36,435 bases of DNA from Eubacterium sp. (lineage in GTDB: Bacteria > Bacillota > Clostridia > Lachnospirales > Lachnospiraceae), in contig JAGBNF010000043.1 of assembly GCA_017634555.1 (NCBI GenBank), positions 1-36,435 on the forward strand, written 5' to 3'. Below the pieces are notes generated by a model. It saw only the letters and a list, made by a program, of their open reading frames with translations, had not been told where the DNA came from and searched no databases. The position numbers and the translations under genes were made by a program. This document shows positions 23,326-27,592 of this stretch, one piece after another (within the stretch, counting starts at the first letter, position 1; the number at the start of each line of letters is the position of its first letter).

Positions 23326-23628
23326 TTACTCCTTATCCTTTTTTATGCCGAGTCTCTCAAATATGAAATCATAGCTGCCGTTTCCATATCCCATGGAACG
23401 GTTGACACGGCTGATCGTCGCTGTAGAAGCGCCGGTTTCTTTTGCAATCTCAATATAAGTCTTTCCCTGATAGAGAAGTCTTGCGACCTTAAGTCTGTCA
23501 GCTATGGAAAGCACTTCGTTTGTTGTACAGATATCTTCGAAGAACTTATAGAACTCCTCCCTTGATTCCAGGGTATCGATCGCATCAAAAAATTCTTCTA
23601 CTGTTTCTGTCCTTATGGTTCTGCCCAT
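23326..23628 (-). CDS. YerC/YecD family TrpR-related regulator
   Basis: A 100-residue helical DNA-binding protein. The sequence fits the YerC/YecD group of the TrpR superfamily: TEEFF-like start, SREEFYKFFEDICT, then NEVLSIADRLKVARLLYQGK and the HTH YIEIAKETGASTATISRVNR. Its effector and targets are unknown; unlike true TrpR it is not next to trp genes. The ATG shares a base with the amylase gene stop (TAATG), so the two are translationally coupled, and GGGGG precedes it. It could regulate this operon, but no operator is evident. Confidence 0.92.
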   Translation of the reverse strand: MGRTIRTETVEEFFDAIDTLESREEFYKFFEDICTTNEVLSIADRLKVARLLYQGKTYIEIAKETGASTATISRVNRSMGYGNGSYDFIFERLGIKKDKE

Positions 23629-25097
23629 TACTTAACCCCCGCTTTCGGCTCTTTATGAACCCATACAGATACTCCGCAGCGGTTTACATAAAACTCGCCA
23701 CAACCATCATCATCAATCTTTATATTATATTTCGCATTTCCCAGAATATCCGAAAAATGTTGTCCTGCAAATTTACGTCCTATATACATTCTCTTTGTTC
23801 CGCCTCTGCCGTCAGACATTATAACGGCAAGTCCGGAATCCTTATGATCTTCGTCGCCCTCTCTGGTCCAGCCTATGCAGTCCGGATCATCGAAGTAATC
23901 ATGCTGTTCGCCGTAAGCCTTTGTCTTTCTCAGCTTCATCAGCTTATCAAGAACATTTTTTCCGCCCTTATACTTATCCTCGGCTATTCCGTAGTAATCT
24001 CCGTAGAATACACAAGGATAACCTTCGCGTCTCAGAAGTATGAGCGCATAAGCAAGCGGCTTAAACCACTCCTCTACGAAGGACTCCATGATCTGTCCCG
24101 GCTGCGAATCATGATTATCCACGAAGGTAACAGCCTTAAGAGGATTTTTGCTTACAAGCGAATTATCAAATATCCTTCTGAGATCATAAGCACCGTGTGC
24201 TTCCGAGCAATGGAAGAAATTATAATGGAGCGGTACGTCAAAAAGAGACGCCTCGGAATTGATCTCGCCGAGATATGATGTAAGCTCTCTTACATCACCG
24301 TTCCAGTACGCGCCTGCGGTAAACAGTTCTCTTCCCGTAAGCTCTCTGACCTTTGTAAGGAATTCTCTGTGGAATCCCGAAGGAATATTCTTTACATCAT
24401 CCAGTCTGAAGCCATCCACATTTGTGGTCTTTATATACCAGACTGCCCATCTGACAAGCTCATCGAAAACTTCCTTGCTACTGAAATCCACATCTGCCCC
24501 CATAAAGTAATCATAAGCATCGTTCTCTGTCTTATTCTTACCCTCTCCGGACGCAGCTTCACCTTCCTTGAACAGTGACTGCTTCAGAGTATTCTGATCC
24601 CAGTCAATTCCCTTAAAGTGCTTCCAGTTCCATACGAAGTCAGAGTATTTGCCCTTTCTTCCCGGAAACGAAAAGCCTGTCCACGCACCGATAACCTTGT
24701 CCTCGCCTATCATCTGATAACGATTGCTCTCATTAAACTCGGCAGCTGTAACGGTCTCCACATAATCCGCTCCCAGCTTACGGTTCAGAACAACGTCAGC
24801 GTACACATTTATCTTATTCTTCTGCAGAGTCTTTATGGCCTTAATGTACTCATCCTTTGTGCCGTACTTGGTACTTACAGACCCCTTCTGATCGAATTCG
24901 CCCAGATCGTAAAGATCATATACCGAATAACCTGAGTCCTCTATACCCTCCGCGCCCTTAAATGCAGGCGGAAGCCATACCGAAGTAACACCTGATGCAG
25001 CAAGGCGCTTAGCCTCTTCTGCAGCCATATTCCATAAAGAACCGTCACTCTTCTGATGCCCCTCAAAGTACTGCATCATCAGTCCGTTATATATCAT
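23628..25097 (-). CDS. GH13 alpha-amylase-like protein lacking the catalytic Glu
   Basis: A 489-residue cytoplasmic protein (no signal peptide) of the GH13_5 alpha-amylase type, with MMQYFEG near the start. Conserved region I reads DVVLNR (101-106; family DVVxNH). Region II is GFRLDDVKNI, with the nucleophile Asp at 233 (family GFRLDAVKHI). Region IV is FVDNHDSQPGQ, with Asp330. Region III reads TAGAYWNGD: Ala263 (codon GCG at 24309-24311) stands where the family has the acid/base Glu (GEYW or AEYW). Hydrolysis is therefore doubtful. ATG 25097 is chosen because GGAGGG is 8 bases upstream; the frame also offers 25115 with a poor site. It is packed between citrate synthase and yerC. Confidence 0.88.
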   Translation of the reverse strand: MIYNGLMMQYFEGHQKSDGSLWNMAAEEAKRLAASGVTSVWLPPAFKGAEGIEDSGYSVYDLYDLGEFDQKGSVSTKYGTKDEYIKAIKTLQKNKINVYADVVLNRKLGADYVETVTAAEFNESNRYQMIGEDKVIGAWTGFSFPGRKGKYSDFVWNWKHFKGIDWDQNTLKQSLFKEGEAASGEGKNKTENDAYDYFMGADVDFSSKEVFDELVRWAVWYIKTTNVDGFRLDDVKNIPSGFHREFLTKVRELTGRELFTAGAYWNGDVRELTSYLGEINSEASLFDVPLHYNFFHCSEAHGAYDLRRIFDNSLVSKNPLKAVTFVDNHDSQPGQIMESFVEEWFKPLAYALILLRREGYPCVFYGDYYGIAEDKYKGGKNVLDKLMKLRKTKAYGEQHDYFDDPDCIGWTREGDEDHKDSGLAVIMSDGRGGTKRMYIGRKFAGQHFSDILGNAKYNIKIDDDGCGEFYVNRCGVSVWVHKEPKAGVK

Positions 25098-25114: not shown

Positions 25115-26479
25115 TTATCTCTCGGAAAGTGGGATGTATTCAACATCTGCGCCTACCGACTTATATGCAGGTCTTATTATCTTTCCCGCACAGGTAAGCT
25201 CTTCTATCCTGTGAGCACTCCAGCCGACTATTCTTGCTATAGCAAAAAGCGGCGTGATAAACTCATCCGGAATATTTAGCATATTATATGCAAAGCCACT
25301 GTAAAAGTCTATATTCGGACTTACCGGCTTATACATCTTCTTTTCCTGTCTCATAAGGTCCGGTGCAATCCTTGCTACAATGCTGTAAAGTCCTGCTTCC
25401 TTCTCTCTTCCTCTTTCTTTAGCCAGCATAGTGGTATACTTCTCAAGTATCACCGCTCTCGGATCCGACATCGTATATACTGCATGTCCGATACCGTAAA
25501 TGAGTCCTGTCTTATCGAAAGCTTCCTTGCGGAGTATCTTCTGAAGATATGCCGCAATCTCATCCTCATCGGCCCAGTCCTTTACATTATCCTTGATCTC
25601 ATCAAACATCTTGATGACCTTAAGGTTTGCGCCGCCGTGCTTAGGTCCCTTAAGAGAACAAAGCGATGCAGCAACTGATGAATATGTATCGGTTCCCGAT
25701 GAAGTAACTACATGTGTTGTAAATGTAGAATTGTTTCCGCCGCCATGCTCTGCATGAAGAACCAGCGCTATATCAAGTATCTTCGCTTCAAGCGGAGTAA
25801 AGCTTTTATCCTGTCTCAGTATTCTGAGTATATTTTCCGCAGCTGAAAGCTCCGGCTTCGGATTATGTATGTAAAGACCTCTTCTCATAAAGTAATGTCT
25901 GTAGGAGAGGTATGAATATGCTGCTATCATCGGAAGTACCGAAATAAGCATAATGCTCTGTCTGAGAACATTCGGAATCGAAAGATCATCCGGATGCTTA
26001 TCATAAGCATTAAGCGCAAGCACATCACTTGCCATAGCATTCATTACATCCTTGTTCGGTGACTTAAGTATTACGTCCTCGAGGAAATCACTCGGAAGTC
26101 TTCTGTAATATGACAGAAGCTTCTTAAACTTTGCGAGCTCAGCCTCCTCAGGAAGTCTTCCGAAGAGAAGGAGATATACCGTCTCTTCAAAACCGAATCT
26201 GTCATCCTCGGTAAAGCCCTGAACAAGCTTATCGATATCTATACCTCGATACTTGAGCATTCCGGGGATCGGAACAGTCTTTCCGTCCTCAAGCTTAGAT
26301 CCGAATACCGATGAAATCTCGGTAAGACCTGTAAGTACACCACGACCGTTAGGCTCTCTCAATCCGCGCTTAACCTGATAGATATCATAGAGCTCGGGAT
26401 TTATGGAGTTTGTTTCGGAACAAAGCTCAGACAGCTTATGGATTTCTCTTGCTGCTTCGCCCTGACTCAAAAATGACAT
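25115..26479 (-). CDS. gltA: Citrate synthase
   Basis: A 454-residue citrate synthase, condensing oxaloacetate and acetyl-CoA. Landmarks are KYRGIDIDKLVQGF, the first active-site His block ALVLHAEHGGGNNSTF, and SLKGPKHGGANLKV. GIGHAVYTMSDPRA carries the oxaloacetate-binding His, and NIDFYSGF holds the catalytic Asp. The length fits the larger clostridial type. AGGAGG lies 9 bases before the start. With the NADP-isocitrate dehydrogenase at 28058-29269 it would feed 2-oxoglutarate for glutamate synthesis. No aconitase gene is in the window. An amylase-like gene follows after 17 bases. The symbol is by function only; citZ would be equally valid. Confidence 0.95.
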   Translation of the reverse strand: MSFLSQGEAAREIHKLSELCSETNSINPELYDIYQVKRGLREPNGRGVLTGLTEISSVFGSKLEDGKTVPIPGMLKYRGIDIDKLVQGFTEDDRFGFEETVYLLLFGRLPEEAELAKFKKLLSYYRRLPSDFLEDVILKSPNKDVMNAMASDVLALNAYDKHPDDLSIPNVLRQSIMLISVLPMIAAYSYLSYRHYFMRRGLYIHNPKPELSAAENILRILRQDKSFTPLEAKILDIALVLHAEHGGGNNSTFTTHVVTSSGTDTYSSVAASLCSLKGPKHGGANLKVIKMFDEIKDNVKDWADEDEIAAYLQKILRKEAFDKTGLIYGIGHAVYTMSDPRAVILEKYTTMLAKERGREKEAGLYSIVARIAPDLMRQEKKMYKPVSPNIDFYSGFAYNMLNIPDEFITPLFAIARIVGWSAHRIEELTCAGKIIRPAYKSVGADVEYIPLSER

Positions 26480-26492
26480 ATCTCATAACCTC

Positions 26493-27029
26493 CTATCGGT
26501 TGTTCTTTGATGAACCGATTGCATCAATTACCAACATTATCGGCATAGCATATGCACATAAGTATCCCGAAAGGGTAAATGCTGCAGGCTGATTCATAAA
26601 CGCTATAAGTACTTTATAGAAATCGTTCTTGGTATTAAGGAAACCGTTTACTCCGAACATAACCTTTCCGGTATAAAGTGATCTGGCCGCATATACAAAT
26701 ACCAGTATAACAAGAACCACCAATATCGGCTTTGACGGGAAGTATCCCGAAAAAAGCAAAAGCGCTATAACAAAGCATACTATACGCATCAGATATGTGG
26801 CAGCCGACATGATCATGAACTGACCTGCATCCTTCGGTGCGAACACATTTCCTATAACAAAGAATTCAAGTACGAATCCCACTACCGGAATGAATATTGC
26901 CGCAAGGATTCTGCCCGCTCCGATATCGCCTCTTTTTCTTGAAAGAATAAAGCCTACCACTATCACAAGTACATAAGCCGCAATATCAAGAATATATGTG
27001 AAATTTGCGATTGATAATCCGTTACTCAA
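26493..27029 (-). CDS. Multi-pass membrane protein of unknown function
   Basis: A 178-residue, very hydrophobic protein with about five or six transmembrane segments (FTYILDIAAYVLVIVVGFIL, RILAAIFIPVVGFVLEFFVI, YLMRIVCFVIALLLFSGYF, ILVVLVILVFVYAA, LCAYAMPIMLVIDAI). I see no family motif. The start is TTG at 27027-27029, with GGAGGAGG upstream; the nearest ATG is far inside the first helices. It starts 2 bases after the HD-protein stop and ends 13 bases before citrate synthase, so it belongs to that operon. Transport and signalling roles are both possible. Confidence 0.78.
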   Translation of the reverse strand: MSNGLSIANFTYILDIAAYVLVIVVGFILSRKRGDIGAGRILAAIFIPVVGFVLEFFVIGNVFAPKDAGQFMIMSAATYLMRIVCFVIALLLFSGYFPSKPILVVLVILVFVYAARSLYTGKVMFGVNGFLNTKNDFYKVLIAFMNQPAAFTLSGYLCAYAMPIMLVIDAIGSSKNNR

Positions 27030-27031
27030 CG

Positions 27032-27592
27032 TTATTTCCTCCTCCTGCGTTTCGGGGAAATGAATTTCCGAAGCTTCCTTACTTCCATCTCCCGTCCTAT
27101 CACCGAAGTAATACTGTTATACTCTATAAATTTCAATGTCTCAAAGGTCGCACATATCTTATCCGCCATGCAGACATAAAATGCCTCCCTCTCCTTCGGT
27201 ACTCTCGAAATATTCAGCGGGAACATATGACAATATATTATTCTCTGTTCCAATGCCGATATACCGAATTCTCTAATGGCATTCTCCATGGCTTTTCTCG
27301 CATGAGTATAACCATGGACCTTCCTGCCCTTAACCTCCGGATTATGCCAGTCATACATATAGAAGTCATGCAGGAGTCCACCCCTGACAATACTCCTCAT
27401 ATTGACAGGCTTCTTTGACCGAAGGGCAAGATAAACCGCCATATATGTTACGGCAAGAGAATGCTCATATGTGGAAATGACACCATGCTGACAGTATTCC
27501 CTCTCAACCTGGTAGCTCTCCGCATTAATGATATCTCTGCCGTACCGTTTAATTATCTCTATTATTTTTTGGTTTTTACCGATTTCCATCAT
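27032..27592 (-). CDS. HD-domain phosphohydrolase-like protein
   Basis: About 186 residues with a metal-dependent HD domain. Motifs in order are STYEHSLAVTYMAVYLA (first His), GGLLHDFYMYDWH (the HD pair), KVHGYTHARKAMENA and IIYCHMFPL (further metal His residues), and ADKICATFE (the final Asp). The substrate is unknown. The frame can start at a TTG at 27601 directly after the hsp20 stop (TAATTG) or at ATG 27592/27589. I chose the first ATG, but neither has a clear ribosome site, so translation probably depends on coupling to hsp20. The basic C-terminus (SPKRRRRK) could touch nucleic acid. Confidence 0.82.
   Translation of the reverse strand: MMEIGKNQKIIEIIKRYGRDIINAESYQVEREYCQHGVISTYEHSLAVTYMAVYLALRSKKPVNMRSIVRGGLLHDFYMYDWHNPEVKGRKVHGYTHARKAMENAIREFGISALEQRIIYCHMFPLNISRVPKEREAFYVCMADKICATFETLKFIEYNSITSVIGREMEVRKLRKFISPKRRRRK

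Follow-up and report, generated by a model that had tools for sequence, protein, structure and literature searches.

The gene and its active site

The window, i.e. the whole stretch of 36,435 nucleotides of Eubacterium sp. DNA that was analysed, carries on its minus strand an amylase-like gene, hereafter the query, which is directly preceded by a citrate synthase gene and followed by yerC/hisR:

25115–26479, minus strand: citrate synthase gene, directly upstream of the amylase (NF010635, 687.9 bits, cut-off 426)
23628–25097, minus strand: putative GH13_5-type pseudoamylase of 489 residues, ATG at 25097, stop codon ending at 23628
25059–25061, minus strand: codon 13, GGG (Gly), Trp in 76 of 88 relatives (codon read and alignment)
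24780–24782, minus strand: codon 106, CGT (Arg), region I His position (codon read directly)
24474–24572, minus strand: residues 176–208, eroded metal/substrate loop (alignment and predicted structure)
24399–24401, minus strand: codon 233, GAT, nucleophile Asp kept (codon read directly)
24387–24389, minus strand: codon 237, AAT (Asn), region II His position (codon read directly)
24309–24311, minus strand: codon 263, GCG (Ala), position of the general acid/base Glu (codon read directly)
24108–24110, minus strand: codon 330, GAT, third Asp kept (codon read directly)
23326–23628, minus strand: yerC/hisR, TrpR-related protein (TIGR02531, 125.4 bits, cut-off 42.2)

The citrate synthase gene overlaps an ATG at 25115 with its end (TAATG), a GGAGG stretch precedes the amylase ATG at 25097, and the amylase stop codon overlaps the ATG of hisR (TAATG). 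A sequence-only reading of this DNA had placed gene and motifs correctly, leaving the strand unstated. Elsewhere in the window, at 1946–2178, an ABC ATPase reading frame ends in a repeat-rich (FGQPNQF-like) part that overlaps the likewise repeat-rich start of the next reading frame, which lies in another frame.

The query frame contains no internal stop over its 489 residues. Its translation matches the NCBIfam alpha-amylase family NF006969 over the full length (653.9 bits, cut-off 382) and exceeds the cut-offs of Pfam PF00128 and PF09154; by descent it is an alpha-amylase of what we take to be subfamily GH13_5. Its best solved relatives are bacterial liquefying amylases such as 2die, with 51% identity over 477 residues in a structural alignment. 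The predicted structure keeps the fold, with the (β/α)8 barrel and domains B and C, and residues 179–198 are modelled at a pLDDT below 50. Fold and length are shared with the liquefying GH13_5 enzymes (2die, 2gjp, B. licheniformis type), whereas the acid/base Glu, two active-site histidines, Trp13 and the loop are changed. Asp233, Ala263 and Asp330 stand where GH13_5 enzymes have the Asp/Glu/Asp triad. The codons confirm the replacement of Glu263 by Ala, of the region I His by Arg and of the region II His by Asn, with Asp233 and Asp330 kept, as the sequence-only reading had it; that list was right as far as it went (E263A, H106R, H237N) but missed W13G and the eroded loop. Further changes are A234D and, in the loop, F178E, K181A, W183S, V187K and N194A. 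The roles of the active-site histidines, Trp13 and the metal-loop residues are presumably those of their counterparts in the B. licheniformis amylase.

Of 144 columns that at least 98% of 63 intact relatives conserve, 11 are changed in the query, and 10 of these changes fall within the 32 columns that belong to the four conserved regions (±4) or to loop 176–208 (hypergeometric p 7.9e-7, an optimistic value since the loop was picked after its changes had been seen). The four conserved regions without the loop hold 4 of the 11 changes (p 0.056). Two rows with an intact triad, L066 and L072, lack Trp13 too, so that its loss is no strict marker of triad loss.

Losses of catalytic residues among relatives

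The sampled genus comprises 61 genomes including that of the query, and 60 of them matched the query. In the sole exception, G036, hisR is cut by the contig edge and the absence of the amylase is probably an assembly gap. The triad could be read in 59 species: one or more of its acids are gone in 12, and two others have lost just a catalytic His. The acid losses are E263A in G000 (the query genome), E263Q in G004 (a single-contig genome, 99% complete), D233A in G056, D233E with E263S in G033, replacement of all three acids by Asn in G011, D330N in G010, G014, G045 and G024, D330E in G002 and G032, and D330G in G022, a fragment (L098) counted among the 59 species and absent from the tree described below. 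Outside the genus, L019 carries D330E, and L109 D233S, E263D and D330E. Judged by the residue, D330E in L088 and L091 is a mild change with which activity may remain. The alanine at position 263 recurs in no other row examined, Glu263 being replaced elsewhere by Q, S, N or D, or other acids being lost; a clade with a common Ala, as envisaged in the sequence-only reading, is thus absent from the rows aligned.

A maximum-likelihood tree of 79 rows was built without the 14 scored columns and without L041 (in two pieces, never aligned), the fragments L098, L101 and L102, and duplicates. On this tree the triad state changes at least nine times, and Glu263 is changed in five lineages including the query; the count itself gives no direction, which we infer to be loss because outgroups, sisters and most rows are intact. 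The placement of the long rows L097, L109 and L100 is less sure. The query pairs with the intact L043 (support 100/96) in a five-row clade whose other rows all keep the triad, and its nearest relative (84% identical) as well as the next two are intact, so that its changes arose on its own branch.

All losses lie within one 72-row clade with a hisR-linked amylase. In a 112-row FastTree tree 37% of the total branch length belongs to this clade, and the chance of all nine events falling inside it is p ~1.2e-4, a value that assumes equal rates and answers a question posed after the pattern was noticed. Outside the clade the triad is kept in 52 sampled amylases, namely 40 unlinked tree rows and 12 fetched later, the latter lying outside both the tree and the yerC check; because the search for rows relied on their resemblance to the query, unlinked losses in strongly diverged amylases may have escaped it.

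The loop varies as well. Residues ~168–193 are largely deleted in five relatives (L046, L092, L094, L099 and L100), and the loop is shortened in L083, L093 and L096. Changes concentrate in the conserved regions plus loop, deletions counting as changes, with p <0.01 in 13 of 16 rows (exceptions L083, L088 and L091), the loop again having been picked after its changes were viewed. In L046 (the same gene as L005 6001–7404) and L094 an active-site His is changed and the loop deleted with all three acids kept; in L018 both histidines are changed and the triad is kept. These three rows are possible natural steps toward loss and, being triad-intact, suggest that loop and histidines would change before the acids.

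Several simple causes were rejected. Decay through broken frames does not apply, as no copy in the 60 matching genus genomes has a real stop or frameshift; the break in G038 is a run of N and the G022 copy is split between contigs. Takeover by a second copy was dismissed because no genus genome has a close one, other matches being 23–34% identical; other GH13 genes occur alike in genomes with intact and with lost triads (9 genomes). Loss of glycogen metabolism was discarded since its enzyme families are widely present: glycogen synthase (PF08323) has a match in all 61 genus genomes, some partial at contig ends, and phosphorylase (PF00343) exceeds its cut-off in 55 of 61, and all 31 near-complete genomes have a match to it.

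Selection after the loss of catalytic residues

In the lost clade L093, L095 and L096 (D330N/N328D/H237D), omega is 0.039, 0.070 and 0.078 at dS 0.49–0.59, compared with 0.024 and 0.035 in two active pairs at like dS; constraint is somewhat weaker than in the active pairs, yet strong. The lost pair L088/L091 has omega 0.035 at dS 1.68, which is near saturation. Other active pairs span 0.005–0.069, with the highest value in the query's own clade, and the query against L043 gives 0.089 at dS ~1.06–1.08. Neighbouring genes show dS of 0.58–1.00 in eight of ten cases (1.66 and 1.77 in the other two) for the same comparison; the amylase dS resembles that of most neighbours, and recombination at the gene was rejected.

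The changes of the query are concentrated in the cleft. Polarised by L044, changes in cleft or loop (69 columns) and elsewhere number 19/18 on the query branch and 3/22 on the L043 branch (p 0.0013); with L045 as outgroup the figures are 18/22 and 1/20 (p 0.00085). Outside the cleft the query and its intact sister have evolved at about the same rate. Of the trios with lost or altered rows, 9 of 16 reach p <0.05 and 7 do not, several sharing rows and some sisters being only approximate; active-only trios do so in 0 of 9. The excess is not significant for L046, L083, L088, L091 and L099, nor for L092 with one of its two sisters. On several other lost branches the changes outside the cleft, too, outnumber those of the sister used (26 vs 8 in L092, 63 vs 27 in L097).

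Loss of catalytic residues, an open frame and purifying selection, the marks of a pseudoenzyme, are thus found together, the post-loss selection having been measured in other lineages because the query branch is a single species. We regard it as moderately probable (roughly 0.6) that the query is a pseudoenzyme, i.e. a cytoplasmic GH13_5 amylase scaffold that no longer hydrolyses and is kept for the scaffold, its cleft being released from selection. This reading draws on at least nine triad changes, cleft-centred loss, open frames, purifying selection in lost groups and the kept fold; absence of hydrolysis and a scaffold role are what these sequence data would imply. Selection against misfolding alone could, however, hold a scaffold for a time.

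This objection leads to the alternative of a lingering decay, in which a dispensable amylase drifts and its frames stay open through time lag and selection against misfolded protein. A dN of 0.088 between query and L043, 2.4–2.8 times (about 2.5 times) the values of corC (0.037) and citrate synthase (0.032), fits such drift, as do the wider acceleration in L097, L100 and L109 and a relative outside the clade, L041 (211–1634), whose amylase is split into two pieces that lie in different frames, either a broken gene or an assembly error. Two neighbours exceed the amylase in dN against L043, the reading frames at 27032 (0.107) and 26493 (0.686), and against the more distant L003 the amylase (0.134) is about level with corC (0.133). 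With 0.25 changes per site, each lineage collects ~15 stops in a crude neutral simulation. We consider lingering decay unlikely in view of an omega that stays well under 1 in the lost pair and the lost trio of species, the lack of truly broken copies among the 60 genus genomes with a match, and the clustering of losses in cleft and loop. Both the suspicion of the sequence-only reading that this is not simple decay and its suggestion of a pseudoenzyme are supported by open frame, selection in lost lineages and kept fold.

For the enzyme to be still active, the part of Glu263 would have to be taken by a substitute acid (e.g. Asp234 next to the nucleophile), by a bound water or by an activated substrate. 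Nucleophile and third Asp are indeed kept in the query and in L092, both of which carry A234D, and activity is reported for BmaN1, an aberrant-triad GH13 amylase with a nucleophile possibly shifted by one residue (PMC5347038). The likeness lies in GH13 amylase-like proteins without triad residues; the difference is that BmaN1 retains the Glu and sits on its own subfamily branch, its group having Glu kept, Lys at the nucleophile position and His as the third residue as against D233, A263 and D330 here. The passages of that paper on BmaN1 describe a group, and beside it a second small one with all three triad residues substituted without regularity (PMC5347038), whereas the query clade shows repeated losses from intact sisters beside hisR. 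Since the query is also changed at Trp13, both histidines and the loop, and other lineages lost different acids without a common substitute, continued activity is very unlikely; the different acid residue proposed from the sequence was not found, with A234D beside the nucleophile as a candidate.

Operon context and possible role

yerC/hisR adjoins the amylase in 67 of 72 clade rows, which is every one that can be checked, the other five offering only ~100 nt of downstream DNA. No yerC was found beside unlinked amylase loci in the DNA searched, a few of these loci having little downstream DNA. YerC is HisR, a histidine-responsive repressor of the TrpR family that binds DNA with histidine in Ruminococcus gnavus (PMC9413887). 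Upstream of the amylase, HisR-like sites that match the published consensus with a score of 11 of 14 or more occur in 24 of the 78 rows whose upstream DNA is available, these rows being related and not independent cases, and in 36 of 4000 random stretches. Such a site is present in 4 of 13 lost rows and absent from the query and its four nearest relatives; the best score upstream of the query gene is 8/14, the background level. HisR-like palindromes precede the amylase–hisR unit in many relatives (e.g. L010, L012, L039, L132, L134 and L141), where the amylase may be under histidine control. The shared operon hints at a possible link of the amylase to the hisR operon. Upstream, the reading frame at 26493–27029 of the window is 32% identical to its counterpart in L021, with no NCBIfam match, the other neighbours being 83–99% identical.

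The frame might also stay open merely through translational coupling to hisR, the protein itself being unneeded. The TAATG overlap in the window and the adjoining yerC wherever checkable in the clade accord with this, but coupling requires no amino-acid conservation, yet omega is 0.04–0.08, and in 58 of 73 loci (duplicates among them) more than 10 nt separate amylase and yerC, which renders such a place-holder highly improbable. A sequencing or assembly error is scarcely credible even in a 72%-complete draft genome, given that a single gene combines four active-site changes with an eroded loop (more than the single-base error already judged insufficient from the sequence), that its neighbours, the 26493–27029 frame apart, agree well with L021, and that other assemblies, among them the single-contig G004, show independent losses.

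Under the preferred pseudoenzyme reading, selection on amylase activity would have been lifted in the lost lineages, selection on the folded scaffold would have continued, and the surfaces of barrel and domain C would serve a non-catalytic role, most likely as a cytoplasmic binding partner or stabilising protein. Glucan binding via the old cleft is unlikely, because Trp13 and the loop are changed, the loop Trp is gone and the loop model is of low confidence; the glycan-binding role considered earlier is weakened as far as the cleft is concerned. It is decidedly unlikely that in the hisR-linked clade the scaffold has an older second function connected with the operon of the histidine repressor, such as that of a partner or sensor acting on HisR, which would be kept by selection while catalysis is repeatedly dropped once glycogen turnover needs no such enzyme.

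Plant ISA2 is an isoamylase subunit without catalytic residues. Like the query it is an amylase-family protein thought to function without catalysis, but it acts with a paralogue, while no second close copy was found in the genomes of the query genus. ISA1 and ISA2 form a complex (PMC12516185). The non-enzymatic GH13 members rBAT and 4F2hc likewise offer a GH13 scaffold acting as a partner protein, as proposed for the query, although they are heavy subunits of amino-acid transporters in subfamilies GH13_34/35 (PMC11239784). Open-licence literature on GH13 and amylase pseudoenzymes gave no report of a GH13_5 pseudoamylase among the matches listed.

In these Lachnospiraceae, starch or glycogen hydrolysis is overstated where the gene is annotated as alpha-amylase. 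One bacterial gene has apparently turned into a pseudoenzyme at least nine times, and intact sister species allow a direct comparison of the steps and of the retained function. That several related species lost the cutting residues independently suggests that the protein is retained for a non-cutting job.
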